Below are positions 25,001-51,800 of a DNA stretch of 64,000 bases, one piece after another. Made by a program: the position numbers and the translations under genes. A model generated the notes under the pieces. The model saw nothing but the letters and a program-made list of their open reading frames with translations. It was not told the origin of the DNA and searched no databases. Positions within the stretch are counted from its first letter, which is position 1, and each line of letters starts with the position of its first letter. Location: positions 62,001 through 126,000 of the forward strand of contig JAULBX010026052.1 of assembly GCA_032358255.1 (NCBI GenBank). Direction: 5' to 3'. Source of the DNA: Heterotrichella gracilis (Eukaryota > Sar > Xanthophyceae > Tribonematales > Xanthonemataceae).

Positions 25001-25535
25001 CTGACTACGCCCTGTCTGTGGATGGCACCAAGGCCTTTGTGCAGTGGCGCACCAAGGGGGTTAGAAGGAAACCAACGTCAAGGTGGACATCTTTGGGATG
25101 GATCTGCTGAAGATTGAGGGGGGGAAGGTGCGGTGACGGGGCACACTCAGCTGCATGCACCAGTGTACTTGTGGGTCCACTGGCAGTGATCATCACTGAG
25201 GTCACTGCGCAAATATCATGAATGTTGTACTGCGTATGCATTGCTGGCAGGCACCTTTTAGGCATGGCAGGTCAGTAAGAGATAACGTTAAGCTACCACA
25301 CAAGATGCAATATTGTATTGGGTGCCAAAATCACAGGCGTGGGGCAAAATGCTTTGCCAACGCTGTCTGGCACTGTGTTGGTGCACCAGAGGTGCAATTG
25401 CTATCACAGTGATTATGCAGGCATGTTTGCGATTACTCAAACATTTTTTCCTGTTGCCCCTTGCAGATCAGCCAGGTGGTTGTGTACAGGCAGCCAACCC
25501 CCAAGGAGGCAAAGGAGCTGCTGGCAGAGGAGTAG
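22004..25535 (+). CDS. Tandem NTF2-like (SnoaL-type) protein, copy A; frame broken as read
   Basis: Six exons: 22004-22267, 23050-23202, 23746-23803, 24159-24361, 24976-25127 and 25467-25535. Two NTF2-like modules follow one another: KYVQCAKAFDEVL...IKGTEAIADYWAKYW...WFLRQLS, then VVESFIKMWDSCDPDG...LDAYKEMVRCTYK...FVQWRTKG...VDIFGMDLLKIEGGK...VVVYRQPTPKEAKELLAEE. No transit peptide, so probably cytosolic; ligand or enzyme role unknown. Exon structure is the same as in the paralogue at 27333, with every exon the same length except exon 1 (two codons shorter) and exon 5, which is 152 instead of 153 nt. The missing base lies after gttag near 25073, between FVQWRTKG and VDIFG, and throws the reading off frame. 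It is either a young pseudogenising deletion or a sequencing error; the rest looks under constraint. TGTAA follows at 25745. Confidence 0.8.
23163..23350 (+). repeat. 94-bp duplication of exon-2 end plus donor (copy A)
   Basis: The last 40 nt of exon 2, the donor gtgggt and 50 nt of intron (from 23163) repeat from 23257; a short third stub follows at about 23351. The unit contains GGGTAGGGTTTTTCC and GGAAACCCTAAC. The second copy codes LTP where the first codes LSP, as in the paralogue. Confidence 0.9.
24319..24575 (+). repeat. Exon-4 end repeated three to four times
   Basis: The exon end GTGCACCTACAAG with donor gtgag occurs with donors at 24362 (real), 24452 and 24530, and a decayed fourth start at about 24554. 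Each spacer carries GGTTTAGG or GGGTTTAGG. The copies diverge progressively from the exon. Confidence 0.88.
24808..25005 (+). repeat. Exon-5 start repeated three times
   Basis: Two pseudo-exon starts, about 24817 and 24902, precede the real one at 24976. The middle copy keeps a good acceptor (ttttccccgcag) and the first 12 codons, then runs into CCCTAAATCCTAAACCC. The first copy has lost its AG. Confidence 0.88.
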
Positions 25536-27332
25536 GCAACTAGCGGGTGGCCTATCTTCTCTGCAGTGATTTTACTCAGGCTGGCTGTACATGTTGCTGT
25601 GCAAGCGCTGACACATAGGCTGCGAGAGTATTTTATGTGGCACGCACTGTCAGCTATTTGAGCAGTGTGTTGAAATTTCCAGGCGACTGTTGTTGATTTC
25701 GCATTGGCTGAATCATCGGCACGGTTGGACAAACGGATGGGAGGTGTAAAATGTACAAATAAAATAAACCGCACATGATAATTAGATAATTAGATAAACA
25801 ACGGTTGAAGAGGGACGTGAGAGTATCATAATAGAGCAGGCCTGCTGGCCTTTCCTTCGCATGTTGGATCCTGGTCTTTCATTTGCATGTTTCTACCAAA
25901 TCCATGCCATGAGCATGCATATCCTGTTTTTGTGCAGCGTACTCGTGCATTGTGAAGCATACTGACACAGAAAGTTACTGTGGCGAGTTGCCGGCCCTGG
26001 CTAGCAATGTGCATTGTAGTGCGCAATGTGCACCATATTAGTGAGTGTTGAATCAAACTGGTAAAGATTTACGTTTCACCTGTTGTGAAATAGATTTTGT
26101 TCATCAGTGCAACTGGCATACCATGGTGAGTGGCCCGCCATGCATGTACCAAGTATGACGGAATGCACCAGTGGCCCCCGCCACGCAACCTGGTGTTGTA
26201 AGTGTGCCCCAGGGCCTGTAAATAGTGTCAAGGATTCCAAAGAAGGCACATGATTTGGACTTTCTACGTTGATCTGGTCTGTCACATTTATTTTTGCAGA
26301 CGATGCGTATTCAATTTGGTGTTGTGGCTTTATCACCTGGGCGCACTGTGCTTCGAAAAAATTGATCATCCCAACGGGCAGCTGCAGGACCTGCGCAATT
26401 GCGCATTAATGATGCCAAATTGCGCATTAATGATGCCAAAAATTGCGCATTAAAGATGCCAAATTGCGTATTTGGCTGATTTTCTGGTGCCATCACTTGA
26501 CAGAGTAGGTATTTATTTCCAGCGTATCAAGACCATAACGTACATGGAGCACTGCAAACATGTACAGGTTGCTGGGTTGCGCATGCGATTCACTGCAGTC
26601 TGGACCCTTTTGGAGGCAACTGTGCTGTTGCATTGCGGTGTCCGGTGTCAATCTTGTCCAGCCGTGTCTAAGACTGGTGCCATGCAGCAGCCATGAGAAT
26701 GGATTACAGAAAGAGAAAAATCAGCAAAATATCCAACTTGTGTAGCAGTCATGGCATTATTGGGCAAGCAAAATTGGGCTTCAGGAGCCCATAGCCCCAA
26801 GACTTGGGCATGAACAGTCTCAGACTTGCACAGCTTTGCAGTGCAGTGCAGTGCCCTTCTGAAGCAAAAATTACCTTGATTGGTAGACTGTGGTCTAGGC
26901 AGGAAAACCAGCACGAGCGCCTCGTCAGTGTGGGATTAGAAACCGGATATTAATTGTCAAGTGACCCTACCCTAGGGTGTGCTTTCATTCACTAGGGTTT
27001 TCCTCGCTGCCGCTAAACTTCTCTGAAGGAGGGTGGTCACTGCACTGCATCACAGGGTAGTCACCTTGATCCTCTGTAGCACCTACCGCCGACATACGTG
27101 GCCACGCTGAATCTCCGAGATGGGGCCCAGAACTTTTGAGGCTGTAGGCCTTCCTGTTGTCTTTCGCAGGCCCTATATAACCCTACTTGCTGCAGCAACA
27201 CAGTGTTTGCAAGGCTTACTGCGTGACGCTTGCAAATTCTCTCTGCACCGCAAAACACACTGCGTGACACAACCTGCTTGCCGTCGCTGGCTCAAGTACC
27301 CCGCTACCAAGTGACTTCCCACGTCCGCCAGC
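25536..27332. other. Spacer between the two tandem NTF2-like genes
   Basis: Holds the 3' UTR of copy A, a small tandem repeat and the promoter and leader of copy B. No other gene seen. Confidence 0.45.
26397..26475. repeat. Tandem repeat, 21-bp unit AATTGCGCATTAATGATGCCA
   Basis: Two identical 21-bp units are followed by a 23-bp variant and a partial fourth (aattgcgtatttgg). The core TTGCGCATTAA is nearly palindromic. Confidence 0.9.
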
Positions 27333-30300
27333 ATGGCCTCGCACCAGAAGTACGTGCAGTGCGCCAAGTCCTTTGACGAGGTGCTCAACAAGCAGCACGA
27401 TGCCAGCAAGCTCAAGGCCCTGCTGGCCGATCAGGTCACCCTGCATGCCGACAATCTCACTGTGAAGACCGACCTGAAGGGTGCGGACAAGGTAGCTGAC
27501 TATTGGGCCAAGTACTGGGAGAGGTATGAGTACAACCATATGCCTCTGAGCTATGGAGTCAACCCCGACAAGAGCACCATCTTCTGCTTTGCTGTGGACA
27601 AGGTGAGAGGGGAGTGTGGTGGTGGTGGTGGTGGTGGTGATGGTGGTGGTGGTGGTTGACCTGAGCTGGTGTGCAGGAACCTTAATACTATGCATGCAAC
27701 AGGAGTCAAACCCTTCTCTATTCTTATAGTTTTTTCAGTGAAGCAGTGGGCCAGGCGCACAATGGGGTTACTACCACAGAGTGGCAGGCCAGTGAGGTAT
27801 TGCTAGCTAAGAATTTCCTGGTTAAGTCTCCCTGTCAAGGAGTGGACGTTGCAGCTGGGCGTGCAATGGTCACTATAATCCTAATGCAATGCCACAGTCA
27901 TCCCCGCTCAGCTGCCATATTCATTATCCAATGCTTCAAGCCCACGCAGCCTGACGCCCCACACATGAAGCGCCTGTCGCACGATTTCCGTGTGCTTTCT
28001 CAACCCCCTGATACACCACGGGCTCAACACACCATCATGCGACTGCATGTTGTTTGGGTGATTTTGGGGTCCACGCATGCATCCAGAGCCACTGGAGTGC
28101 ATTGCCTTGGCGGTTGTTGTAATGGCAGCATCGCAAGCATTGAACACCGAGGGAAATATCCTGATAAATTATAGTACTTTGCCGCGCCACCCTCAGGGTG
28201 GTAAATATTAAATTTTGTGTGGTCATGTTAAACCTGTCAAACCCTAAAGGTTAGGGTTAAGGGTTTCAGCACGCGCAATACCGATCGACGGCAGCCCCTG
28301 CCTGTTCACACCATCGCCTTCAACAACCATTCATTTCATGTTTCTGTTGGACTCCTACACCTTGTTATTGCTTCCATGCCCATGCCATGCACCGTTTAGG
28401 ATCATACTCACTGTCCTGCCATGCCCCAGGGTGTGAAGCGCAAGGTTGAGCAGACTGGGGAGAAGCTGCCCAGCGAGCCCGCTGACTCTGTGGGCATCAC
28501 CAAGTTTGATGTTGACAAGGACTGCAAGATCACTGACATCTGGTTCCTGCGCCAGCTCACACCAGACGAGATCCAGCGCAAGGTGGGTAGGGTTTTTCCT
28601 AGTGCGTGTGGAAACCCTAACAAGGGGTATGGCATAGTTCCTGCGCCAGCTCACACCAGACGAGATCCAGCGCAAGGTGGGTTGGTGACATCTGGAAGCC
28701 CTAAAGGGATAACGGGCAACCCCATCTTTTAGATTGCCATGGCGTGGTCCTGTCACTGGAACTCCGTGGTTGAGCCCTAGACAGCTATTGCAATTATCTG
28801 CACCAGCTTGCACCAAATGAATGATGATAAAGCGCAAGATGGTACCCCTATCTAAGGCGTTGCAGTTTGCGCATGGAAACCCTTTGCGGTCTTGGTGTAG
28901 CCACAGAACTTCACTGCATGTATGAAGGCCTAGACTAGGGGGTAGATCTAGGGTCAACCCTAAACCCTCCACCCTTGACTCCATAACCATATTTGTCTTG
29001 CACCTGTTCCAGCTCACTGCCTGTTACCAATAAGTGCTTTCTAATATTTATTTCAATTTTCTGAATTTTTTCATTTCAACTGAATATACAGCGCAAGTGG
29101 GGTTAGCTAATGAACTGGGACCCATGGAACGTGAGTTTCACAGCAGTGTGATACCTTTGTGCCCCCCCACCATTGCAATAGTAACAAGTATGAATTTGAC
29201 TTGCACGCCCACATTCTCTTATGGCACTGCAATTGACTTGCCAAGGACCCACTGGCTCACACATTAGCCTCTTCCAAATGACCGGGCCCGCCCTAACTGA
29301 CGATTTGGTTTGCAGCTGACCAAGGATCCAACCCAGTCAATGGAGTTCAGCCCGGAGTCTTGGAAGGACTCAGGTGAGTGATTTTCTACGGATGATAGGT
29401 AGGAATAATGTATAGCACCGTGCATTGGCAATTGCTTGCGACAGCTGCCGCTGAAACACCCAATTTGCAGCACATCTTGAATTTGATGGAAACTGGATGC
29501 AGTAATTGTGTGCATTAAATGAAGATAAGTTATACCTGTTATGTAATACTGTGAAATGCTGCATAGTAAAGTTGTGTTCTGTGGACAGAATGCTGATGAT
29601 GCATTGCTTGATATGATGCTTTCTCCCAGGCAGCAGGTTGATTATTACTGCTGTCTTTTGAATTATGTTGCTTGGCCCTGTGCCCTTTTCAGGTGACAAG
29701 TATGACAAGCTGTCTGACAATGACAAGCAGTCCATGACCCAAGTGGTTGAGTCCTTCAACAAGATCTGGGCGACCTGCGACCCAAGTGGCGCAGACAAGT
29801 TCATGACCCCGGATGTGTGCTTCTACAACCCCATCATGGGCAACATGACCAAGGGGGTGGACGAGTACAAGAATATGGTCAAGACCATCTATCAGGTGAG
29901 TAGGAAAAGATAGCTGATGGAAGCGTCTGTGGAGGTCAGTGCATATACAATATGCATCGAGGTAATTTACTTAAGAACTTACTTGTACTAGCATTTGTCA
30001 GCAAGAATTTTGAGCCTTACTTCCCCTGACTCAGGAGGTTTACAGTGCTGCGGCACATACGTATTCATATGCTAATACGAAAGCCACTGTGGCTTATCAC
30101 GCATGGTACCATCACCTAAACAATTGAAATATGTATCATACTTGATGTGCGGATCTTCAACTTCCACTGTTCCCACTTTATCTTTGCTTTGTATGTTGGC
30201 GCCCTTGTCACTTCTCAACTGGCTTAATGACGACCGATGCCATGCCTGGGGGGCACTCAGCTCACCACTTTGTGCCCTGCCCTGCAGCACGTTGACCAGA

Positions 30301-30920
30301 AGCAGTGTCTGGCTGACTACGCCCTGTCTGTGGATGGGACCAAGGCCTTTGTGCAGTGGCGCTCCCAGGGCACTGACAAGGAGACCAAGGAGCAGGTGGA
30401 CATCTTTGGGCTGGATGTGCTGAAGATTGAGAAGGGAAAGGTATGCTGCGGAGGCAAAACAGTTGGATGCAAAACCAATCGTTGCTGATCTGGGCTGCAC
30501 AGAGAATCATTTTCGTATGGATGGTATCAGGAGTAGATGGTAGTGGGATTCAATCTGTACGCTGGGCCCTGCATCCCATGCATAGTGCCATCACCACCGC
30601 GACACTAATAAAAGCGTGACTGGTGCATTCGCAATGACTTACAGGCATATACCCCTGTCGATTGTGGCACGTGTTTCTCAGAATGCATTTGGGCGAGGTA
30701 CACCACCATTATCTAAAACGTTAAATGCGGTGGGCCACTACTAGAATTCATCGATGGGGTGATGTCATTGACAAGTATGCACGCGCGCTAATTCTGATAC
30801 CATTCGATGTGACATGTTGATTACAGTATTCGTCTTGGTTATCTGTTGCAGGTCACCGAGGTGGTTGCGTTCAGGCAGCCGTCCACCCAGGAGGCTAAGA
30901 AGCTGCTGGCAGAGGAGTAG
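27333..30920 (+). CDS. Tandem NTF2-like (SnoaL-type) protein, copy B
   Basis: Six exons, 27333-27602, 28430-28582, 29316-29373, 29693-29895, 30288-30440 and 30852-30920, give an intact 301-aa protein starting MASHQKYVQCAKSFDEVL. Module 1 ends in ITKFDVDKDCKITDIWFL; a linker (KDPTQSMEFSPESWKDSG) leads to module 2, KLSDNDKQSMTQVVESFN through FVQWRSQG, VDIFGLDVLKIEKGK and VVAFRQPSTQEAKKLLAEE. Both modules have the helix-rich start and the sheet-rich end of NTF2-like domains, which commonly form a cone-shaped ligand pocket; no catalytic residue can be assigned. It is the complete partner of the gene at 22004 and allows that gene's defect to be seen. Exon 2 and its donor-side intron are nearly identical between the copies while other introns are not, which points to gene conversion. 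Confidence 0.88.
27616..27657. repeat. (GGT)n microsatellite
   Basis: About 13 GGT units with one GAT interruption, just inside intron 1 of copy B. Confidence 0.95.
28543..28685 (+). repeat. 94-bp duplication of exon-2 end plus donor (copy B)
   Basis: Same unit and same 94-bp period as in copy A: exon end, donor gtgggt, telomere-like intron start, then the exon end again from 28637 with a second gtgggt. Confidence 0.9.
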
Positions 30921-32127
30921 GCAACCTGCTGGCTGGGTGTGAGCCTGGTCAGCAAATAATGGTACATGTGCAGTTCAGTACATAAAGTATAGGTTTATGT
31001 GCAGCCATTTGTGTATGTGTGCACATCATTTTAAACCTAATGTAGAAATGTTGTCCACCGCAAGCTGTTAGGTCAGATTGAGTGCTGATGTGAGGCAATT
31101 TTGGCTGGCAATGGCAGTACTGCTGGTGTTTGTTCCACTGAGTCAGTGGTAAGTCATCATTGCTAGGTAGCAAAGCAACAAGTATGGCATCATTAGCGAG
31201 CAGTGAGCCATGAGTGCTTGCACTGGTAGAGTTGAATTGATTTTGGCAAACTTTGCCTTCAGATTGTTGCCGTATGCTGTTGCAAAAATATTACGGCTTA
31301 CAAATTATATACCATGTCGAACACTGTTGTAGGGTGGAGGTTTAAGGTTGAACATCTGGTCATATGATCAGGAACAATGTTGACCATATGTGGGTCAGGT
31401 TTTCTGTAAATAATTGACGCAAGTGGAAATATTTGACACGAGTCACTAGGCAACTGTGACGGTGACAACTTTATCGCATTGTTAGTTGTGATCGCATCCT
31501 GCGACCAAGCAGTGTGCACAGAAGGTTACAACTGTTGCTGCTTCCGCTTGCACATCCTGTACTGATAGGGAACTGGCTGCCACTGCTGTGCTGCTGCCTT
31601 TTGAAGAGCATGTGGAGCATGGTACTGTTGATGTCATACCCAATAATGACCAGAAATATGTTGTGCACAGTCAGTCTGTCGAAGCATTATTTACAGGCAA
31701 TTAGCTGGCATGCATCTAAGCCAGCTGCTCCCCACAAGTCAACACAGCAAAACTACACGAAAATTTGCCAAATGGAACCAAACGCTGACAACAAGTACCA
31801 ATAGTCCCACCAGGACCCAGCTGTTCCCCTGCCGAGCAGCCATGCTGTTACCCTCCACCCCCCCCCCCCACCCCGCCTTCTTCTTAAAGCCCACCATGGA
31901 GTCACGCACGGACCATTCCTGCACGCCGTCTCTACCTCTATTCAATCAGCCAATCCCCGGCAATTAGAGAGCTCCTAGACGTAAGATCCGTCCATCTAAC
32001 CCAGCTGTTCCCACAGCCCACCATTCCCCATCCATTGTTGATCCCCCTGTTTGCACGCCCAACTCCCCTCCATCCATCAAAACATCCAAGTCAGCACTGT
32101 GTGGCCGCCTCACCATGCCGCTGTGCC
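30921..32127. other. Convergent intergenic region
   Basis: 3' UTRs of copy B (plus) and TOM6 (minus). A homopolymer-like C run lies near 31860. No gene seen. Confidence 0.4.
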
Positions 32128-36175: not shown

Positions 36176-37625
36176 ATGCAGGTCCAGGCTCTGTTCGGCA
36201 CTGGCAAGGGTGGGGCCACCAAGAAGGCTGCCACAGAAATCAAGAAGGCCGGCACAACCATCAAGAAGGCACTCCCCACCCCTCCCAAGAAGGTCGCCGC
36301 ACCAGTCAAGAAGGCCCTCGCACCCGTCAAGAAGGCCGCCGCACCCATCAAGAAGGCAGCATCCGGTGCCGCCAAGAAGACCAAGGGATGGCTCGGGGGT
36401 GAGGGCGGTGCCCAGGACCTCGACAAGTGGTATGGTGAGTGACAGTGCCCACCCAGCGCATCGCCATAGAGCACCTGTTTTGCACCGACCATGCGCAATT
36501 ACCTGTTGATTAACGTGTTTGTGTGTTCGACTCGCAGGCCCCAGCCGCAACCTGTTCCTGCCCGGCGGTCTGTACGACCGCTCCGAGGTGCCAGCCTACC
36601 TGAACGGAACACTGGCTGGCGAGTAAGTGCTACGCGCATTGTGTCCTGACAAGATGTCCCTCACCAACCTTGCCCTGCCTGCTTGCTATGCTGCGAGACC
36701 TTTGTTCGTTCTCAGTGTTGGTAAGCTGTCGACACATTTCACCTCTGCCTAGTACCCACTGATGGGTCTCTTTCCTGCTCCACAGCTACGGCTACGACCC
36801 TCTGGGTCTGGGCAAGGATGGCCAGATCGAGAAGTTCCGCGCCAACGAGCTCATTCACGCTCGCTGGGCCATGCTGGCAGCAGCTGGGATCATCATCCCA
36901 GAGGGCCTGCAGGCCAACGGTGCTGACATCAAGGGTGGAGTGTGGTTCGAGACCGGCGCTGAGATGCTCAACGGTGGCACCCTCAACTACTTCGCCGTGC
37001 CATGGGGCATCGTGAGCAACCCCCTGCCCCTGTTTGCCGTCATTGCTGTGGAGGTGCTGCTCCTGGGAGCCGTGGAGAGGTTCAGGGCGTCCGGTGAGGG
37101 CCCAGCTGGCTACTCCCCAGGGGTGGGCAAGTTTGACTCCGACATCTTCAACGGGCTGGACAACCTATACCCAGGTGGGCCCTTCGACCCACTGGGTCTG
37201 GCTGACGACCCAGAGGTGTTTGCTGAGCTCAAGGTGAAGGAGATCAAGAACGGGCGCCTCGCCATGGTGTCAGTGCTGGTGAGTTCAGCTCCTTGCAACC
37301 TTGCATACGCGGCATCAACACTTGCTTGGGTCACCTGTGGCCTTGCACACGCACTGTCGGGGGTGGCATACTGGGGACTTGCACAGGATCTTGTGGGGCA
37401 TTGCTGCTGCAAGGCGGCGACCTGCTTGTGCTTGTGCTGCATGTGTACACATGCCAGGACTGGTGTGCTAACGCGCTCTGTGTCTCCGCTTTGCAGGCCT
37501 TCGCAGTCCAGGGCTACGTAACGGGAGAGGGCCCATACGCCAACTGGTCAAAGCACGTGGCCGATCCCTTCGGCTACAACTTGTTGACGATCATCGGCAA
37601 TGAGGACCGCGTGCCAACATTGTAA
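36176..37625 (+). CDS. LHCB5: Chlorophyll a/b-binding protein CP26 (minor PSII antenna)
   Basis: Four exons, 36176-36434, 36538-36622, 36786-37278 and 37497-37625; 321 aa. After a short N-terminus, residues 14-75 are a Lys/Ala/Pro repeat ([20 protein letters not shown]). Then [18 protein letters not shown] and [18 protein letters not shown], which are CP26 hallmarks, helix B with [10 protein letters not shown] (chlorophyll-ligand Glu and Arg pair), [20 protein letters not shown], helix C, and helix A with [13 protein letters not shown]. The C-terminus YVTGEGP through [12 protein letters not shown] and RVPTL is as in plant CP26. It binds chlorophyll and carotenoid beside the photosystem II core and links the LHCII trimers to it. 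CP29 lacks the WFETGAEML block. A TGTAA at 37750 fits the poly(A) signal. Intron 3 is an introner-like copy. Confidence 0.95.
37279..37496 (+). mobile_element. Introner-like intron (LHCB5 intron 3)
   Basis: This 218-nt intron aligns from donor to acceptor with the 213-nt MnSOD intron 2 (39063-39275, minus). Shared blocks in the same order: CAACCTTGCATA, CACCT, CTTGTGGG, TGCTGCTGC, CTGCTT, TGCTGCATGTGTACACA, GCCAGGA and GGTGTGCTAA (probable branch point). The flanking exons are unrelated and intron phases differ (0 here, 2 in MnSOD). Confidence 0.8.
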
Positions 37626-38571
37626 AATTTTCTCTATTTCAGCTGTACCATTTTTCCTGTATCTGTTGTATGCTAGGTAGCTTGAATTTACACTAAGGTG
37701 CGCTTGATGCCACCAGTATTGTTACAAAGCAAGCTGGACGAGGCCTGCCTGTAATAACTCCCCACACTCACCTGCGTACCAACTGGTTGAGGCGAAAGCC
37801 TATGCATGCATGCGTCAGCCTGGCGAGACTGATCAGTCCAGTATGCGGCACTGTCAAGGGCCATGCTCTGACAGGTTGCAGTCCAGCCGTGGCAGTAGTA
37901 TCACCTGTAATTCTGTGCGACACTGCTGCCTAGGGTTTCCAATGGCATCGCCTACTCACACACGCAGCTGCTTGTCTCAACCTGGCGGCGGTCATTGTGT
38001 AGCAGATTTACAGACTCTGGCACAAACCCAGTTGGCGCAAAGTTGGCTTCCAAGCACTACAGTACTCTTTAAACCCAGCTCATTTTTCAAAACCACTGGA
38101 GAATTACAACCATACACACCATCCCAGTTGCAGCAACCTTGCAACCAGCAGGTTGTCAAGCTAAGCACACTTGATGCAAAGGGCAGACAAAAATAGGCTA
38201 GCCCACTTCCTGTGGCAACACTGGTCAAGCCTCTCTGCTAAGGCAACGGACTGATGCTACGAGTAGCACGTGGACAGTTCAGTGACGCGACTTTCCATGG
38301 GTGTCCCTCACAGCTTGCCCTATCTTCAAGCACCGGCAACAAACTCTGTCTGTATCCGCGATGGTCATTCGGCACAATTAGACAAGCCACGCGCCCAGTT
38401 AGACAAGCAAGGCATCAGGAGCTGGGCGGGGCTATGGCATCAAATCTGCAACCTTTCAACTGTAAAACCCGTTGCTGTTCAATATTTCCCTGTACCTATG
38501 CTGCTGTACCTCTCACAGCCTGCTGGCAACACCCAACACCCTTTCCCCACCAGGTCCTGAGGCATACCCGT
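37626..38571. other. Convergent intergenic region, LHCB5 / MnSOD
   Basis: 946 bp with both 3' UTRs. No gene seen. Confidence 0.45.
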
Positions 38572-39763
38572 CTATGCCCCAAACACAACCCCGTTCTTTG
38601 CCGCCTCGTAGTTGGCGTTGACTGTCTCCCAGTTGACGACGTTCCACCAGGCCGAGATGTACTCCGGGCGCCTGTTCTGGTACTTGAGATAGTACGCATG
38701 CTCCCTACATAGGCAAGACTACTGGTTAGGTCCTGTATGCACTGCAAAGCAAAGGTTGAAGCGGGTAGGTGCGCTGTTTCGCCATGCATGCATTGCCAAG
38801 TTGACATTCACAGATGGCAACATTGGATGCCACTCACCAGACGTCCAGCCCCAGGATGGGAATGGCGTTCTCCTCAGCAATGCCCTGGAGAGGGTTGTCC
38901 TGGTTGGCGGTGCTTGACACCAGCAGGGAGCCATCGGACTTGACTGACAGCCACGCCCACCCAGACCCGAAGCGCCCAGCTGCTGCCGCGTTGAACTTCT
39001 CCTTCAGGCTGTCCAAGGAGCCAAAGGTGGTGTCGATGGCCTCCTTCAGTGCAGCTGATGGGCTGCAGCGTGAGAGGGACGGAACCTTAGCACACCCATC
39101 CTGGCGTGTGTACACATGCAGCATAAGCTTAAGCAGCTCCACCTGGCAGCAGCATTGTCCCACAAGAACCTGTTCAAGGCACCAATGTCCCTATAGTATT
39201 TTGTACAGTGCTATAGGTGGTACAAGCAATTGATGCTGTCCCGCATATGCAAGGTTGTAAGAAAGCTCAACTTACCCATTGTTGCCGGTGGCACTGCCCA
39301 TGATGGTCCAGAAGAACGAGTGGTTCCAGTGCCCTGCATATAAAAGGCTACTGGTTAGGTTCCGTGCAGTGCAAATAAAGGTTGAAGTGGAAGGTTGTCG
39401 CAGGTGCGCTGTTTCGCCATGCATGCATCTTGGCATTCACAGATGGCAACATTGGACGCCAATGAACAGCACAACGAAACGTGGGCTGGCGCGCAGAACG
39501 ACAAGGTGGTAAACAAGCAACGTACCTCCGCCGTTGTTGCGGATTGCAGTGGCAATCGCTGCAGGGATCTTCTCGCTGCCCACTGCCTTGTTGATATCCA
39601 CGATTCCCAGACCGTTCAACTCAGGGAACTTCTCCAGAGCCGCGTTGACGTTGTTCACGTACGTCTGGTGGTGTTTAGTGTGATGAATATTCATAGTGGT
39701 GGCATCGATGTAGGGCTCCAGTGCGGAGTAGTCGTACGGGAGGGATTGCAAGGAGAACGCCAT
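38572..39763 (-). CDS. Manganese superoxide dismutase, bacterial SodA-like
   Basis: Four exons (minus): 39526-39763, 39276-39333, 38838-39062 and 38572-38704; 217 aa. It dismutes superoxide to peroxide and oxygen. Ligand His residues are seen in [15 protein letters not shown] and [11 protein letters not shown], with Asp and His in [19 protein letters not shown]. The Gln of [11 protein letters not shown] is the Mn-type second-sphere residue, against an iron enzyme. Overall it is closer in pattern to E. coli SodA ([27 protein letters not shown]) than to animal mitochondrial MnSOD. ATG at 39763 starts [12 protein letters not shown]; an in-frame ATG at 39847 would add 28 residues (MLLPLYPPLSPTLPRH...), a possible organelle presequence, so location is open. 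All three introns belong to homologous pairs with other introns here. Confidence 0.93.
38705..38837 (-). mobile_element. MnSOD intron 3, homologous to intron 1
   Basis: The whole 133-nt intron matches the 3' two-thirds of intron 1. Shared blocks: TCCAATGTTGCCATCTGTGA, ATGCATGCATGGCGAAACAG, CGCACCT, CTTCAACCTTT and ACCTAACCAGTAG near the branch point. Confidence 0.85.
39063..39275 (-). mobile_element. Introner-like intron (MnSOD intron 2)
   Basis: Partner of LHCB5 intron 3; see there. Ends are gtaagt and gctgcag; the copy spans the whole intron and stops at the exon edges. Confidence 0.8.
39334..39525 (-). mobile_element. MnSOD intron 1, homologous to intron 3
   Basis: 192 nt; its last ~135 nt align with the complete intron 3. 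It lies in phase 1, while intron 3 lies in phase 2, so this is not a simple exon-plus-intron duplication. Confidence 0.85.
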
Positions 39764-40902: not shown

Positions 40903-41881
40903 ATGGAGGACAACGACCTCCCCAAGGCCCTCATCAAGCGCATCGTCAAGTCCAAGCTGGCCCAGATGGACCCCGCAGATGCCAAGCACGACTACCAGCT
41001 CAACAAGGAAGCCCTCCTGGCCTTTTCGGAGGCGGCCAAGGTGTTTGTCAGCTACGTGACCGCCATCGCAAACGACATCTGCAAGGAGCACAAGCGGCAG
41101 ACCATCAGCGGGGAGGACGTGGTGGCAGCCCTTGAGGACCTGGATTTCCATGAGCTCATCGAGCCGCTCAAGGAGTCGCTGCATGGTATAAATATGTTGC
41201 TATATAGCCCATGTGCTTTCCGTGCCCAAGCGCCTCCCACTCAATGATGTGCCCACGTAACGTTTTCAGCATTACTGCCCTGTGCTCTGCGCTGCTAGCC
41301 AAATCGGGCTACTCAGCAGTCGAGCCTCAAGGCAGCCCAGCTCGTGCAGCTGCATTGTTTAGCAAACCAATTCTGAGCATGATCTTCCCCCTCCAATTTG
41401 CTCAATGTTTCCAACAAGCGGTGTGGACATGTTAGGATATTTCCTTGGCGCCGCATGTGAAGGTTGCCTGCTGGTCGGACTCTACTGCTGCAGCGCATGC
41501 ACCTTTCTCACAGATCCATCTGCCTGCTTTGCTCTGCTGCGTTCAAAAACGCCAGCAAGGAAAATAACCGCAAGAAAGCTGTACTGATGGAACGCATGCA
41601 CCTCATAACAAATCCATCTCCCCTACTTTGCAGCTTTCAAGGACGCCAGCAAGGAAAAGAACCGCAAGAAGGCTGAGCAGACCAAGAAGCGAAAGGCAGA
41701 GAAGGCACAGGACCAGCCACAGGCAGGCGAGGAGGGAGGGTCAGGGGAGAAGAAGACAAAAGCCGAGGGCGAGGGCGCAGCAGAAGGGGATCAGGAAGTT
41801 TCTCCTGCTGGGGAGGACAACGGGGATGAGGGGGAGGAAGGGGATGACGAGGAAGAGGAGGCAGCGCCTATGCAGGACTGA
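40903..41881 (+). CDS. POLE3: DNA polymerase epsilon subunit 3 / CHRAC17-type histone-fold protein
   Basis: Two exons, 40903-41185 and 41634-41881; 176 aa. The histone fold starts at once: EDNDLPKALIKRIVKSKL, LNKEALLAFSEAAKVFVSYV, ICKEHKRQTISGEDVVAALE and DLDFHELIEPLKESL, as in POLE3/Dpb4 (NLP.A.I.RI, KRKTLNASDVLSAMEEMEF in animals). The tail is a basic helix (KDASKEKNRKKAEQTKKRKA) followed by an acidic run of Glu/Asp, as in the family. It pairs with POLE4/Dpb3 in the polymerase epsilon holoenzyme and in CHRAC-like remodellers to bind DNA and histones H3-H4. NF-YB is the nearest alternative, but the acidic tail and LPKALIKRI start fit POLE3. The intron carries a duplicated exon-2 start. Confidence 0.9.
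41495..41676 (+). repeat. Exon-2 start duplicated in the POLE3 intron
   Basis: A 99-bp unit beginning gcatgcacc at 41495 repeats at 41594. It includes the first 40 nt of exon 2. The upstream copy reads gcgttcaaaaacgccagcaa and has lost the acceptor AG (ctgctgcg). Traces of an older third copy precede it. Confidence 0.88.
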
Positions 41882-42807: not shown

Positions 42808-45800
42808 CTATCCATCCAACAGCGCTAGCCCCGCCTCAGCCAGCGCCCCCGCCGCCGCACACTCATGGCTCAGCTTGCGCCTCTCAAAGTACACCCCGCA
42901 GTCAATTGAGTCGCACACCACCCCGGCGGCGCCGCCCCCGCCCCCGCGCCCGCCCCCGCCGCCGCAGTGCAGGCAAATGCGCACTGTGTGGGCCTGCAGG
43001 CGCTCGGTGCGCGCCACCCGAGCCGTGAGCACTGCTGCTGCCAGCTGGGGGTTGTCACGGCAGGCCTCGCACACCGGGCGCCCCGCATTGGTCATCCCAT
43101 CGCACACCTGCCAGTAGTTGTTTAGGGGTTTAGGATGTTACATCAGCGTCGTTCGCCCCTTGGTCAGAGTTTGTGGGTGTGCATGATGGTGGGGAGTGAT
43201 AGTAGGGGATCTAATTACTAACTCTGCACAATTAATTCCAGCACGTCTATTGCTACACTTCGATGCGACAGAGCTCATAAAGGATGCAACACAAGCATCG
43301 TGCATTACCTTGATTGCAGAACAAAGATGCTTAATTGATCTGTGGGTTAGGTTCATGATAAAGCACTTGCAATATGCCCAGTCACCACACCTACCGCGCA
43401 GTGCCTGGAGAGGTAGTATCGGTCAATGGTGCCCCCGCCCCCGCCCCTGGCGCGGCCCCCACCCCCTCCCGCCACCGGCAGCGCATCCGGCGGCAGGGGG
43501 AGAGAGGTGATGGGGCGCTTCTGGGGCACCGTGCGGTGTGCGCGTGGCATGGCGTTGAACCATGCACGCAGATCAGCGCCCAACAGGCTGAAGGCGCGCT
43601 CCAGGGCCGGGATGATCTGCAAGTAATGAAATCGGTATGTACTTGATAATCATCCATTACTTAGAGGGTATTCGCACCTGAAGGTTTTGGGTGGGACCTA
43701 GGCGAGCACCTAGAAATTTCTAGGCCCTCTCAGGCGGACACCCAGGCGATGCCCATGCACCCGTGTCATTTTGCACATTTCATTGAGATTCGCTTTTTGA
43801 GGATCACGTGGACGTATCCACCAATTGGGTACGAGCCGGTTACTAATATTTGATGACGTGGCGTTCATTCGTTGGCCAGAAGCAATTTTAGGAGCGCCCA
43901 AGTCCGTCTGGGCGGAAGTGGCCTTCCGCCGTAACGAAATGTTACGGCGAACGCCCAGGCCGACTTGGGCGAGCGCCCAGAAATTCCTAGGCACTGCCTG
44001 CGCGGTCGGGTATTCACGTATGTGAACACCCTCTTATTTCCGAATATTTACTATCATTTATTAGGTCTACAAAGGTATATTGCCCAGAAAGGAAGCATAA
44101 ATACCATGTTTACCGGCCAACAATGGGGCCAACCAGGCTGCCCTGGTTTTCCAGTATGCAGACTGGCTGTCACAATTCCCAAAGTGGTATAGGCAGCTGC
44201 GTGGCGCAAGCTGTGATCCACCGACAACCCGCCTGTATACCCCTGGTACAACCGAAGTACTCAAGTACTTTCTCCCCTACCTGCTTGGTAATGTAGTACA
44301 TCCCGTGCAGCCTCAGTCTGCCTTGCGCCTCCACCAGGGCCCGGGGGGGCACCACCATGTCTGCCAGGCGGGCCCCCGGCTCACCATAAACCACGACGTA
44401 GGGTACGCGCTCGGCGTGGTGCGGCTCCGCGCTGCGGGCAGGGAGGGTTTCGTTAGGGTTTGACAGGCAGCAAAATAGGGCTTTGTAGGGTCCAGGAGTT
44501 ACAGGCTGAGCACGGTGCCGTATGAGATGAGAACCACAGTATCATGCGGGTGGCATGAGGGTGTGAACGGCAAACCTTAACCTAGGGTAACTCACCGTGG
44601 GTCCTGGTTCATTGCCCTGGTGGCCATCAGCGCAGCGGACGGCATGAGGGTGTTGCCGGCAAACCCTTGTCTAGGGTTTTAGACACACAAACCCTGGCCT
44701 AGGGTACCACACTGTGGGTCCTGGTTCATCGCCCTGGTGGCCACCAGCGCAGCGGGTGGCATGAGGGTGTCGCCGGCAAACCCCTAACCCTAGGGTTTTA
44801 TACGTACAAACCCTGGCTGGGGTAACTCACCGTGGGTCCTGGTTCATCGCCCTGGTGGCCACCAGCGCAGCGGGTGGCATGAGGGTGTCGCCGGCAAACC
44901 CCTAACCCTAGGGTTTTATACGTACAAACCCTGGCTGGGGTAACTCACCGTGGGTCCTGGTTCATCGCCCTGGTGGCCACCAGCGCAGCGGGTGGCATGA
45001 GGGTGTTGGCCGCGTAGGTGCCCAGGCGCACCTCCTTTGCAAAGATGAAGTCAGCCACACACACCCGACCGGACAGGATCTGCTGCCACTGGCGCTCAAG
45101 GTAGGACTTGACCTGCGGGGCATGGCGAGGGTTTAGGGTTTAGGATTTGGGTGAGACAGGGGTATAGGGTTGATCTGCTGCCACTGGCGCTCAATGTAGG
45201 ACTTGACCTGCGGGGCATGGCGAGGGTGTAGGGTTTAGGGTTTCACCTTTCAGGGGGTCTAGGGTTCGTCTTTGGGGCAATCTCGGGGTAGGGTTTCATA
45301 CGTGGGCATTGCGGGGCTGCAGGTTTCCACGTTTGAGGGTTGGCTAGGATTCCAAGGCCATGGCGCATGGCAGGGTTTTCAGGGTTGAAGTATCAAGTAA
45401 GGGAAGGGGTTTTTGATAGTCCAACTCCTGCCGCAAGGTGGTACTCATGTGCCTACCCCCCCTCTCCGCCCCACCTGCGACAGATCCCTGGTTGAGAACA
45501 GCACCCTCAGCGACTGCTCCTGCATCTTGGCAACCGCAGGGCAGCTGTCGCGCCGGATGGTCTCAATCCCCTTGGCATCGAAAACGGGGGTGACCTGGCT
45601 GGGCTTCTCGTAGGCAAACCCCACGTAGCGCTTCTTTGAGAGGAGCACGCAGGGGTGGTACACCTGCGAAAGGGAAAGTTGAGGTATAATAAGGGAATTG
45701 AAGGTGTAGATGTGCATAAAAGTGAACACAGCGCTCTAAAGAGCAGGGTGGCACACCGTGGTAAATGAAAATTTAACATCATTCTTCATCAATTGGAAAT

Positions 45801-48800
45801 GCGAACTGTAATGGATAATGGACATGGATTTCTTTGGAGGGCAGCATGCAGGGGCGGCCCACCTTTTCCATCTTCAGCTTCACGGGAGGGGGGTTAGCGG
45901 CGGTGGCTGCGGCGGCAATCTCCGCCCCGATGCGGAAGGCGTCCTCCCGGGATCTGCGGGCAGCATGTGGGATTCGAAATGCAATATTTGATTTGAACTT
46001 TGATAATTTTGAGGACCAGCCAGATGCGATTTAGAGGCATAACGGCATGTAGAAACTGACATGGCAAGCAGAAAGTAACCTCTCCTAGTTGCAAAATAAT
46101 CATTAAATTTTGTTTTTGATTTAATGCGCATTTTTTTGAAACCTAGGCTTTGTTCCATCATTACCTCCCCGGCAGCAGCACGAAGAGCGAGTCAGTGTCC
46201 CCATACACCACGCGCGCACCCCAGCTAGGGTTTGCCTCAACCATGCGGATGGTGTTCTCCAGGGTCTCGCGTCCTGGGGCAAAAGGGGGACAAGTCAATA
46301 CAAAATGGCATTGTTATTGTGAGTATGGCATTCAGGCCAATAGCAAGGGTTCCAAATTAAACTAACATGACTTGTGCCCATCTTTCCCACCCACTATCCC
46401 TGACTGCACAATCGACCAGCAGCTCGAGACCAAAAATCACACAGCGCCACCAATACCCACTCCACACCATCTGCACAGCACCCCATTCACCCCCCACACA
46501 CACCCCATATCCACTGCCCCAGTAACCCCTCTTAATCCCCCACCTGACTGCACAATCGAGTCGGCCAGCTCGGCAAAAGGCATGCGCCCCGAGAACCCCG
46601 CAGCGGTGTAACCATAGCTCACGTTGGCCAGCAGCTTGAGCCCAAACTGGCGCGCGTTGAGGGTGCGCTGTGCCACCTTGGCATCAGGGCCCAGCTGCGC
46701 CATGGCGGCCTTGACCATGATGCGGGTGTCAAGGATCTCCTGCAGGGTTTTGGGGTTTGTTTGGGATTTTTGGCGTGCCTTACAAGGCGAGCGGACGGCG
46801 GGGTACCGGCGGCCGCTAGCCTGAAAGGCTACGGCATAGCAATATAAGCTAGGAATAATCTTGAGGATTTTGGTTTAGGTCCCTGTGTCGATCCCCATAT
46901 AGATATGGGGATTGTTGGCATCCCGGGCCGAGTAAGACACGCCCCTCCTTGCACGGAGCAGGTTATGTTTGGGTTGGTTAGTATTTTGGTAGGATTTAAT
47001 AAAGTATAGCTTAGGGTACTGCTTGACCATGGTGGACATGTCCAGCATCTGAAGCACCAATATAAGACGCAAGGGTTAGATGTGATTTGGCACCATCACC
47101 TGCATACAAATCCCTAGCACAACACCAACTGAGGCTCAAACCCTGCAAACCCTGCCCTAGGGTTTTCCCATGTTTCCCCGCACCTTGAGCATCCTGGGCA
47201 GCACCCCCGGCCTGGCCCCATGCGGCGCGTAGGCCACCCCATTGGGACTCACAACCAGCCGATCGGGGGCCAAATCCCCACTCAGGGTCCCAGGCGGCAC
47301 CCCCAAATTGCTCACCCCCAGCCGCACCCCTTCCCCATTGGCCGCGGCATGGGATGGCCTGCCCAGGCAGGTGGTGTAGCACAGGTTGTATGCTATGATC
47401 ATTGAGGGGTAGAGGGATTGGAAGTCGAGCACAATCACAGGGGAGGTATAAAAGCGCGACTCTGGCTCCATCACCAGGGGGATGGCCTCCATGGCGGGCT
47501 GCAGCGCAACCTGAAACGGGGAGGGAACCGATGGGAGGGTTGGCTGATACGGCGGGTCAGCTGCTACTCGGGAGATCAGTTGCTTGGTTTGTTGTCAAAC
47601 TGCGGGTGGGGCTTTGGCCTGAATCAATGATTTGTGAAGTGACACTACTTGCTTGTAGACACAATAGTTGGGGCGAACAGATTGAAGTGGGCTTAAAGGA
47701 AAAGGGGCGGGATACAGGATCAATTGGCGGGGCATCGGCCTGGTTGTGGTTGGATGTGTGGGGCGCAACCGTACAGGGTTTGGCTCAGCAGGGTTTATAG
47801 GGTTTCCTGCCCCCCTCACCTGCTCCCTTGAGGGCGACACCGCAAGGTAGTTTTGGCTGTGCGCCAGGCGAAGCAGTAGGGACTCCACTCTGCAGCAGGG
47901 AGGATATCTTAAAAATGTGCAACAACTATACACAACAGTACAAAACCTAGTAGAATGAGATAATGCTCCTGGAGATTGCGCTGCAACCGAGTAAAAGGCA
48001 TTGCGCAATGTCAAGACTTGCACCCCTACAGCATTTGTAACAACAAGCGGTCAAGGTGACGGCCCTTAGCACCAACGTGCATCATGGTGCAGATCACAGC
48101 TGTACTGGCTGGCTCCTATTGGTTAATTAGCATCTCTGCGACTTCTACAATCAATCCCATTTCTTTCTCCCATTCCATTATCCCCTCCCACCTGTACTGA
48201 CTGCCTCGTGTAAGCACAGAGAAGAAATCAATCCCAAATGTGCGCGCCAGCTCAGCGGTCCTCCCCAGCAGGTCCAGGCTGTCAAGCATGGCAAGCACAA
48301 GACGCGCACGCCGCACCAAGTGCCGCACGCACCGCCACTGACCACCTGGGGGTATGGCAAGGGAGGAGGGGGTGGCTAGGGGAGGAACTTTGGGAGTCTT
48401 TGGGTTGAATGAAAGGGCGGGTGTGAGTCAAGCAAAAGCACTTCCTTGGCAGATCACTGGCGCCTAAACCCAAACCAGCGGGGATCTATACGGACGGCAC
48501 ATGCCATAAAAAGCACTCCACAACCCTCAAACCCCCCATCCCCAAACCCTACCCGAGGGTCCCCCGCTGAACCACGCCGCCAGCGCGTGGTGGGGGATGC
48601 GAGGCACCCGCAGCCTCAGGCACGCCGCCGCACAGCCCTCGAATGAGTACATGTTGAGCTTCATGTCAGCGCGCAGCAGGCGCCAGGCGTTGAGGATGAT
48701 GCGGCCCGCAGAGTGCAGCCCCGCCTGGTGCAGGCGCCCGTACTCGTCGTCCTGCCTCTCCTTGATGCTGGCCAGCTGCAGGGAAGGGGGTTGTGAGCAT

Positions 48801-51800
48801 ACTTGCATTGGTGGTGGACTGGGGTGATTTGGTACAAAATTAGATTGTAGGGTTTGGGTTAGCAGTGTGGGTGGCGGCGGTGGTGGTAGTGGGTAGACGT
48901 GAGGGGCGTGTAGCCCCGCTTGGTGCAGGCGGCCATACTCATCGTCCTGCCGCTCCTTGATGCCGGGGGAGCTGGGGGAGAGGGAGATGTGGGGGTTGTG
49001 AAGGGGAGGAAGATTGGTGATGAGGGGATTAGTTCTGTTTGTATTTGATTTTAATTAATCCTGTTTCTGATGTTGTCAATCTGGTATTGGTCCAAGGCTA
49101 GCAGTGTGGGTGACGGCAGCTGTGGTGTTGATGGGCAGATGTGAGGGAGTGCAACCCTGCTTTGTGCACGCACCCAGTACCCAGAATTGCATAACATATC
49201 AAAATTTGGTGCCTGAGATGTGCTATACTGCCAGATGCATGGGCTACACCTTCTGGATTTCTATACTATTTATACGGCCCTATACAGCATCATAAATTCC
49301 TTCAGTTTGCATTTCTCGCTGAGGTGCTGGGGTGCTGAGGTGCAGGGCCTACCTCAGGGGTGCGTGAAATGAGCCGCAGCAGATTCATGGAAAGCAGCAC
49401 ATTTGCCCGGTCCACCAGATATCCCAGGGATTCCTTCTGAACATCCCATCCCAGGATAATATCTGGATCCAGGGACCGCACAGCCTGGATGAACGCCTCA
49501 TACAGGGACTCCTCCGAGGGGTAGCATTCCAGCTGGATGTCTGGCATTCCGTGGGCCGGGGGGGGGGCGTTGTGGTCGCTGAACATTAGGACCCTGGTGA
49601 AAAATTCGAAATCTGGCACATCTTCGTCGTCGTCCAGGGTGGTCAGGGCCACGCAGCGCACCGCGTCGTAGCGGGGGTCGGGCAGGAGGGTGCCTCTGCA
49701 AAGGGTTGAGAGGAAGCCTCAAAACCATGACCTTGCGGGGGGTAACCATGCCTTGAAGCCACTAGCTAGGATTCTATCTCCCGCTCTAGGTTTCTGTATC
49801 CCATCTGGCAAGGTCCTAACCTGCAGTCTGCATGCACCTCCACACAGAGCATTGCCCTACCAACCCAAAATTGTACCCTAGCCCAACCCTACCTGCAATC
49901 CGCATGCACCTCCAACACACAGAACAGTCAGCTAAACCCTAAACTCTAAATCTAAACACAGCATTACCCTAGCCAAACCCTACCTGCAGTCCGCATGCAC
50001 CTCCACACACAGCACAGTCAGCTAAACCCTAAACCCTAAACCATCAACACAGCATTACCCTAGCCAAACCCTACCTGCAGTCCGCATGCACCTCCACACA
50101 CAGCACCGTCAGCTGGTAGCCCTTGCCAGGCACCAGCCTTTTGTACCCCATTTGGCTGAGGGGGGTGGGATTTGGGCCGGCGGCGGAGGGGGGCGCAGGG
50201 GGGGGTATGTGCGAGAGGGGGATGGGGAGGGTCTTGGTGGCGGAGGGAGGAATAACCTGCCCAAGGGGGGAGGAATTGGGTACATATTCGTGGCTTGTTG
50301 ATGGTGAGTCAGGATGGTTCAGTTGAATATTATGGATCCATAATATGGATCCATATGATATGCATGGTGATGTGCCCTGTGCCCATGCCGCATTTTTATA
50401 CATCTAGTGTTTCTTTGCGGTAGCGTGCAATGTGTGGGGATACCTATGACAGATCTGGGTCCACATGTCGGAGACATTATTACCTGTGGGATGGGAGGAG
50501 GTGCAGAAACTGTGTTCACGGAACCCCCTCCAGCACCACCAGAATTGTTGCGCATTGCCTCCCCTGTCGAAAGTGCACCCGGCTCCCCATTGTGCCCCTG
50601 GTCGCTAGGACCCACATCTTCTGCAATTGCCGCCATTTCTGCCCCAACTCTCCTCGCATTTGCGCCCCTACCTGCTGGGGTTGCTGCCACCCCTGGCAAG
50701 GGTTTGCTAGGGTTTTCTAGCACTGCTGCGCCTAATGGAGGGGCTAAATGTGGGGGTAGCTGGGTGGCAGGCGGGGTGCCCCGGGGGCCCAAATTCGACC
50801 TGCGCAGCCTCTGGGAGAGCGAGGGCACTTTTGGGCGCGAGTAGGGTGTGAAGAAATGCTGGCGCTCGTCGTATTTGGGGGACGCAGGGCGCACTGGCTC
50901 CTCCTAGCGGGGCACATTTGAGCAAATGTCAGCAATGTACATGGACAGGGGATGTTAAGGTGTGTGCAAAATTCAATGCCGGTGTGAGAAAGAGAGCTGA
51001 ACCAATGAGGGTTGCAGCTGTATGTAAGACAGCCCCTTCCCCTGTTACTACCATTTGGTACACAGGGCGTACTGCAAGGGCCTCAACAAACCTCTCAAAA
51101 ACAGCCGCCAAGGACCGTGACTAAATTCTGTCCCAAAATGTTTGCTTCGAATTTCACTCCTTGACTACATTGCATCAACTTCAATCTAATCCAAATCCCC
51201 AATAATTCAATATGATATTCCTCTAGCATGTTCTCACCTCCCTGCCATGCTGGTCAAACGCAGGGGAAGGGGGGCGGGGGGTGTCATTGTCGTCATCTGG
51301 CGCATATCTGGAGGGGCCTAATGTGAGGCCAGGCACACGGACCCCACTGGCCCCTGTGCAAATGTTGGGAGTTTCCAGCAGGTGCCCCTCGCCCATGTCG
51401 CTGCCATCCTACGAGAGACACGTGCAAAAATTGAATGGTAGGCAGGGAATAAAAATGGTCAACAGGGTCAGAAATGCATTGCATATGCTGCAGCAAATGA
51501 CAATTATCGTAAACGCAATTCATTGAAGCAACAGCTTTGAAGAGCATTGAAGAGCACTGCAATACATCGACCAGCCACATCAAACAGCCAAAAAAAATTC
51601 TCTATTTCTAAATTCTAATTTATTTTGTGACGTACAGATAATGCATTTCTGCTCCTTGCCGGGTTCATTATGCACACAATGCCGCTCTTTGAAGCACCAC
51701 AATGCAAATCCTAACCTACACCCTACCTGGGTGCCAGGCAGAACAATTGGCACCAGCCTGCCAGTGTTGGGGTCCATGTGGAAGCCGCTACCCCGCGAAA

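Follow-up and report, generated by a model that had tools for sequence, protein, structure and literature searches.

Homologous introns in the neighboring LHCB5 and MnSOD genes of Heterotrichella gracilis, a candidate case of short-range intron transposition

Introns that resemble one another at different positions have been described in several systems. In Oikopleura dioica, near-identical pairs of introns within the same gene have been attributed to reverse splicing (Denoeud et al. 2010, as relayed in the accessible text of PMC3879977 and PMC4122922), in Mycosphaerella intron transposition has been described (Torriani et al. 2011, as relayed in the accessible text of PMC3443670, PMC3488318, and PMC3879977), and introners are known from green algae (Micromonas) according to the available portions of PMC9860276 and PMC3879977. 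Here, we describe two pairs of related introns in a 64,000-nucleotide stretch of the Heterotrichella gracilis genome (contig JAULBX010026052.1, positions 62,001 to 126,000; the whole stretch is referred to as the window) that may have arisen by intron copying over short distances. Pair A joins an intron of a gene for the light-harvesting protein LHCB5 to an intron of the adjacent MnSOD gene, and pair B, which a preliminary description of this DNA had overlooked, lies within MnSOD. Searches of the literature on introners, intron transposition, and duplicated or homologous introns, in a collection with few subscription papers, gave no title or abstract opening that describes such introns in adjacent LHCB5 and MnSOD genes. 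The introns and the sequences shared within pair A are as follows:

37279 to 37496, plus strand: LHCB5 intron 3, phase 0; pair A copy 1, aligned with MnSOD intron 2
39063 to 39275, minus strand: MnSOD intron 2, phase 2; pair A copy 2, aligned with LHCB5 intron 3
37435 to 37451, plus strand, in LHCB5 intron 3, and 39107 to 39123, minus strand, in MnSOD intron 2: TGCTGCATGTGTACACA, longest common run of pair A
37462 to 37471, plus strand, and 39087 to 39096, minus strand: GGTGTGCTAA, presumed branch site and end of pair A homology, placed by the blastn end and the tail tests
39334 to 39525, minus strand: MnSOD intron 1, phase 1; pair B copy 1, common part about 39334-39461
38705 to 38837, minus strand: MnSOD intron 3, phase 2; pair B copy 2, common part about 38705-38832, to the 3' splice site

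The homology of LHCB5 intron 3 and MnSOD intron 2, first pointed out in the preliminary description, is beyond chance resemblance: blastn aligns them at 75.1% over 197 columns, gaps included (E 2.7e-29 in the 64-kb window), identity in ungapped columns is 80%, and the local alignment score of 143 compares with a mean of 19.2 and a maximum of 29 among 300 shuffles. The coordinates, strands, and phases first assigned to the two introns were right, the spliced frames are intact, and TGCTGCATGTGTACACA and GGTGTGCTAA are present in both introns as reported. The exons around them are unrelated, as had also been claimed, with no similarity found between the 120-nt exon flanks (p 0.58 and 0.74). Because the introns are alike while the surrounding exons are not, the sequence comparison supports the view that pair A represents copies of one sequence in two unrelated genes, and not an ordinary segmental duplication.

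The alignment had been described as running end to end, and this holds only from the 5' splice site, where the first six bases are consensus regardless of homology, to the presumed branch-point A. As far as the A of GTGCTAA, the introns match at 148 positions and differ at 37, a Kimura two-parameter distance (K2P) of 0.235, and the blastn match ends at intron base 193. Beyond this point, the last 25 and 24 nt of the two introns are no more similar than shuffled tails (p 0.61), and they are less alike than tails simulated at equal divergence (P 0.007). GGTGTGCTAA, at which the homology ends, is treated as a putative branch site. The ordered conserved blocks reported earlier need no special constraint, since in ungapped columns both the longest run of 17 (p 0.56) and the clustering of mismatches (p 0.34) fit an even divergence; with gap columns included, clustering is marginal (p 0.044).

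This evenness bears on one way in which introns might come to look alike, namely selection on a common functional element, either an intronic RNA gene or an enhancer of splicing or expression. Similarity in pair A does span most of the intron, and LHCB5 and MnSOD are both kinds of gene that are often well expressed, two points in its favor. Set against this are the evenly spread divergence over ungapped columns, the absence from the window of any Rfam match that reaches its gathering score, and the folding of the pair A introns, which is no better than that of shuffles (z 0.22 and 0.43; pair B was not folded alone), and we consider shared function a very improbable cause of the likeness. An intronic RNA gene in particular was rejected on the lack of signal from Rfam and folding, and a permissive Rfam scan of 37200-39600 gave a single chance-level match, which falls within MnSOD exon 3.

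Pair B, whose sequence is unrelated to pair A, strengthens the case for intron copying. MnSOD introns 1 and 3 are identical in 107 of 119 ungapped columns (90%; K2P 0.109), and the similarity covers all of intron 3 except its first five nucleotides and runs up to the 3' splice site. None was found in the exon flanks, and about 60 nt at the 5' end of intron 1 have no counterpart in intron 3. Gaps in this pair are bunched, with clear clustering once gap columns are included (p 0.0005). The homology of pair A begins at the 5' splice site and that of pair B reaches the 3' splice site; a reading of pair A as a copied lariat body, running from the 5' splice site to the branch site only, was rejected because pair B keeps its 3' end. 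The copies of pair B are direct and 0.63 kb apart, and those of pair A are inverted on the chromosome and 1.8 kb apart; since both pairs are exon-free, tandem genomic duplication, which would leave adjacent direct copies with exon, does not fit either.

Among the 15 comparisons possible between the six introns of LHCB5 and MnSOD, two show a relationship, pair A with z 48.6 and pair B with z 42.5; the remaining 13 do not exceed z 2.2, and LHCB5 introns 1 and 2 match none. Four tests across the two pairs gave no similarity between exon flanks (p 0.58 to 0.97). Both pairs lie inside one 2.2-kb neighborhood, and, taken together, they give every one of the three MnSOD introns a relative within 2 kb. 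Because the pairs differ in divergence (mismatches 37/185 in A and 12/119 in B; Fisher p 0.025), they were probably copied at separate times, in at least two events, a conclusion with modest support from the sequences. Neither distance suggests a current burst, so the active or recent system of intron gain of the preliminary description is not supported at K2P of 0.235 and 0.109.

Profiles of both pairs run against both strands of the 64-kb window found two copies of each and no credible third. For the pair B profile, intron 3 was entered as 38708-38837, which lacks three bases of the final 38705-38837; LHCB5 introns 1 and 2 were off by one base in that run, and the 15 comparisons above used final coordinates. 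The best additional match, to the pair B profile at 52804-52903 (9.0 bits, E 0.035) was rejected, as it falls inside the range of 20 simulated sequences, which reached 10.9 bits for B and 13.5 bits for A. Under random placement of two A and two B copies within the window, pair A was this close in 5.5% of trials, pair B in 1.9%, and both in 0.1%, odds that assume two copies in the window and have no bearing on the rest of the genome. Relatives of pair A were sought with two patterns in viral contigs and one in genome contigs, collections unlikely to include this alga, and gave no match; the LHCB5 exon 3 protein likewise found none in viral and genome contigs.

These results can be set against the preliminary description's proposal of an introner family. 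Extended to both pairs, this reading would make each sequence one of many dispersed copies of a non-autonomous transposon that creates introns, with local hopping as the source of the close pairs. The occurrence of introners in green algae (Micromonas) favors it, as does the extent of similarity, for the introns are alike nearly to both splice sites and lie between unrelated exons, with one end of each pair unshared. Signs of transposition did not appear. The target-site duplication (TSD) that had been suggested for checking is not seen in any of the four introns, where exact repeats between the two edges (12 nt either side) never exceed 4 nt and never fall in splice-site register, and terminal inverted repeats (TIRs) are at chance level (p 0.23 to 0.95). 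By eye, the edges of MnSOD intron 3 could be read as TSD-like, but this was dropped as indistinct from splice consensus. A TSD could have been erased by age, and the accessible text of PMC9860276 reports TSDs in 49 of 130 and TIRs in 72 of 177 introner families, so that their absence does not exclude introners, many families of which lack them. The same text requires at least four introns for a family, against the two of each kind counted here within 64 kb. There are moreover two unrelated sequences, each paired within 2 kb, and this weakens the proposal because a dispersed family does not predict two local pairs; the lack of matches to pair A in the contig collections, for what these collections cover, points the same way. 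An introner origin is therefore possible, yet it draws no support from tests within the window, and we think it quite unlikely.

The two host genes were modeled by hand, a home-made gene finder being too crude for use across the window (it merged genes):

36176 to 37625, plus strand: LHCB5 (CP26) gene, exons 36176-36434, 36538-36622, 36786-37278, and 37497-37625
38572 to 39763, minus strand: modeled MnSOD gene, exons 39763-39526, 39333-39276, 39062-38838, and 38704-38572

They are convergent neighbors with 946 bases between their coding ends, and the alignments of both with PDB proteins are continuous over the splice junctions. Spliced LHCB5 is an intact frame of 321 residues in which Pfam PF00504 was found; its top PDB match is 6kac_S, labeled chlorophyll a-b binding protein, at E 2.8e-149 in an alignment that spans residues 47-321 and reaches the C terminus. 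We take 6kac_S to be Chlamydomonas reinhardtii CP26, a match by which the alga would probably be a chlamydomonadalean, and 7pi0_S, labeled CP26, matches at E 7.5e-136. In the N-terminal, probably transit, region of LHCB5, 21-bp tandem repeats at 36220-36358 on the plus strand encode a lysine-alanine-rich repeat. Spliced MnSOD is an intact frame of 217 residues and a stop, with Pfam PF00081/PF02777 and matches to PDB superoxide dismutases (best E 1.4e-75). The Pfam scan covered 20 of the 237 stop-to-stop frames of at least 90 residues in the window.

The modeled MnSOD scores as bacterial in type and is without an N-terminal extension, yet it has three introns. At least 25 codons above its modeled ATG are free of stops, which leaves room for a true start farther upstream and for an extension. 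By score ranking, the protein looks bacterial: the 41 PDB sequences that match it at E of 1e-60 or below carry names without a "mitochondrial" label, the best match scores 256.8 bits and the first chain named mitochondrial 203.4 bits, and identity to a plasmid-borne bacterial SodA is 59.4% with 97% of the query covered. The top PDB entries are presumably themselves bacterial. Genes from endosymbiotic transfer are assumed to be intronless at the start, according to the accessible text of PMC2834692, and MnSOD may have entered the nucleus in this state. Because a bacterial-type gene may be expected to start without introns, those of MnSOD are probably gains, and this in turn favors LHCB5 to MnSOD as the direction of copying in pair A. 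A literature search on orthologous CP26 intron positions and on the origin of algal MnSOD yielded nothing usable.

An age yardstick comes from tandem paralogs at 22006-25540 and 27341-30925, both on the plus strand and about 5.3 kb apart. Three of their exon pairs keep identities of 227/255, 49/58, and 156/203 (77-89%), with bounds from the crude gene finder and further exon pairs excluded. Of four comparisons of their introns, one gives a short significant match (0 of 200 shuffles reached it), and the others are close to what chance would give or no better (p 0.035, 0.135, and 0.155). Because most of these introns have decayed to this level while the exons remain similar, the copying behind pairs A and B probably postdates the paralog duplication, yet the copies are not fresh. 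The yardstick excludes the stretch 23047-23305/28427-28685, with about 100 bp of intron in it, as probable gene conversion; it is 98.5% identical over 259 bp, compared with 79-88% in the other matched stretches, which suggests local gene conversion between the tandem paralogs.

The explanation that we prefer for both pairs, while holding it at somewhat less than an even chance, is short-range intron transposition. A bacterial-type MnSOD gene would have arrived in the nucleus without introns, and nearby introns would then have been the source of at least two of the three that it now carries, with LHCB5 intron 3 copied into MnSOD intron 2 (pair A) and MnSOD intron 1 copied to intron 3, or the reverse (pair B). 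What was found in each pair is a copy of an intron, without exon, at another position, with one end incomplete. The route is less certain. It may have passed through RNA, the excised intron being reverse-spliced into its own or an adjacent transcript, then reverse-transcribed and recombined into the locus, and an RNA intermediate is suggested because the copies are intron-bounded and in sense orientation in both hosts, unlike the direct, often junction-crossing DNA duplications discussed below; sense orientation in both hosts is also required by selection.

Several considerations weigh against this explanation. Reverse splicing should copy a whole intron, and pair A is without the last 24-25 nt while intron 1 in pair B has about 60 nt extra. 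In the available text of PMC3443670, most suspected reverse-splicing events are at existing intron positions, and reverse splicing itself was seen only with a mutant and back to the original position; intron transposition is called negligible in green plants, nematodes, and Daphnia in that of PMC3488318. Replacement of the body of an older intron, in place of gain, would also fit the data. The bacterial type of MnSOD is read from a score ranking, an upstream exon may exist, the age difference between the pairs is modestly supported, and the splice sites and gene models are predicted ones. The closeness of the pairs, finally, suits copying at the DNA level at least as well.

Such DNA-level copying is a close rival: template-switching repair or ectopic gene conversion would have copied a stretch of intron into another intron close by, with selection sparing the events that left exons intact, and we regard it as unlikely on balance though less so than any other alternative. 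It gains from the fact that both pairs are close neighbors, from the edge in each pair that is intronic and off a splice site (the branch site in A, about 60 nt into intron 1 in B), and from the abundance of other local duplications. Self-comparison of the window gave 31 related pairs at E of 1e-3 or below, and beyond the paralog block, pairs A and B, and two telomere-motif matches, these are exclusively direct, close-spaced repeats, which we grouped by hand into 13 intervals (a partial copy extending to 49171 was not joined to the interval 48713-48991). By eye, an exon-intron junction is crossed in 9 of the 13, one lies within an LHCB5 exon, and three are unclear or were not closely inspected. 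The junction-crossing direct duplications, as read by eye, include:

44571-45006, minus strand
45077-45266, minus strand
13725-14082
23163-23356
24318-24553
24810-25008
41480-41675
48713-48991

These duplications appear by eye to leave decayed pieces of exon inside introns. One junction was checked at the protein level, in a gene resembling DNA polymerase zeta (6v8p_A in the PDB, E 7.2e-12, no gap over the joint 44949/44431), where an exon end and its donor recur, decayed, in the next intron (44571-45006). The same gene has an acceptor and exon start repeated at 45077-45266, as read from sequence only. A plant-type telomere-like motif, AAACCCTA, occurs in 9 of the 13 intervals against 1.6 expected at random, a count reached in 0 of 5000 trials; the test counts each interval once, and two intervals (23163, 28543) are paralogous. 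Break repair with telomere-like insertions is described for mammals in the available text of PMC7215372, and by analogy the direct duplications of the window could represent such repair. Across the window, the motif has 46 sites against 1.04 expected (e.g. 24945, 45236, and 50031), 24 of them within or near duplications, and its runs contain CTAAAC, a possible branch site.

Pairs A and B do not resemble these duplications. They are spaced, contain no exon sequence, and lack the telomere-like motif, and pair A is the sole inverted pair among the 31 when the two telomere-motif matches are set aside. This contrast is the reason, as a modest argument, to suppose an intron-specific route for the two pairs in preference to DNA-level copying.

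If short-range intron transposition did occur here, it may have been a recurrent local process, in which introns, soon after splicing, insert again at or beside the site of their transcription and MnSOD copied first from its neighbor and then from itself, an extension that we find doubtful. Were it true, intron gain would be set by physical neighborhood and not by a dispersed mobile family, and the three introns of one possibly once-intronless gene, each with a relative 0.6 to 1.8 kb away, would illustrate this. If relatives of this alga lack these introns, one could state for each gain where it came from, where it went, and over what distance, and short-range copying would become testable across the genome of one alga.

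Compared with the systems described at the outset, the locus shares features with each. Tandem genomic duplication, as presented in the accessible text of PMC3443670, is likewise local and resembles the junction-crossing duplications of the window, while pairs A and B are exon-free and non-tandem. Introners, in the available portions of PMC9860276 and PMC3879977, are similar introns in unrelated genes, alike close to the splice sites and flanked by unrelated exons, as here, whereas our pairs show two copies each in the window, placed locally, and no sign of a family. In Mycosphaerella, genes without homology to one another carry homologous introns, which may occupy positions that already existed, a description that would also fit this locus, except that pairs A and B are short-range. 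Oikopleura likewise has pairs and not families, with both introns in one gene as in pair B; its copies are near-identical, whereas those of H. gracilis, with identities of 90% and 80% in ungapped columns, are older. Pair A differs further in spanning two different, adjacent, convergent genes.

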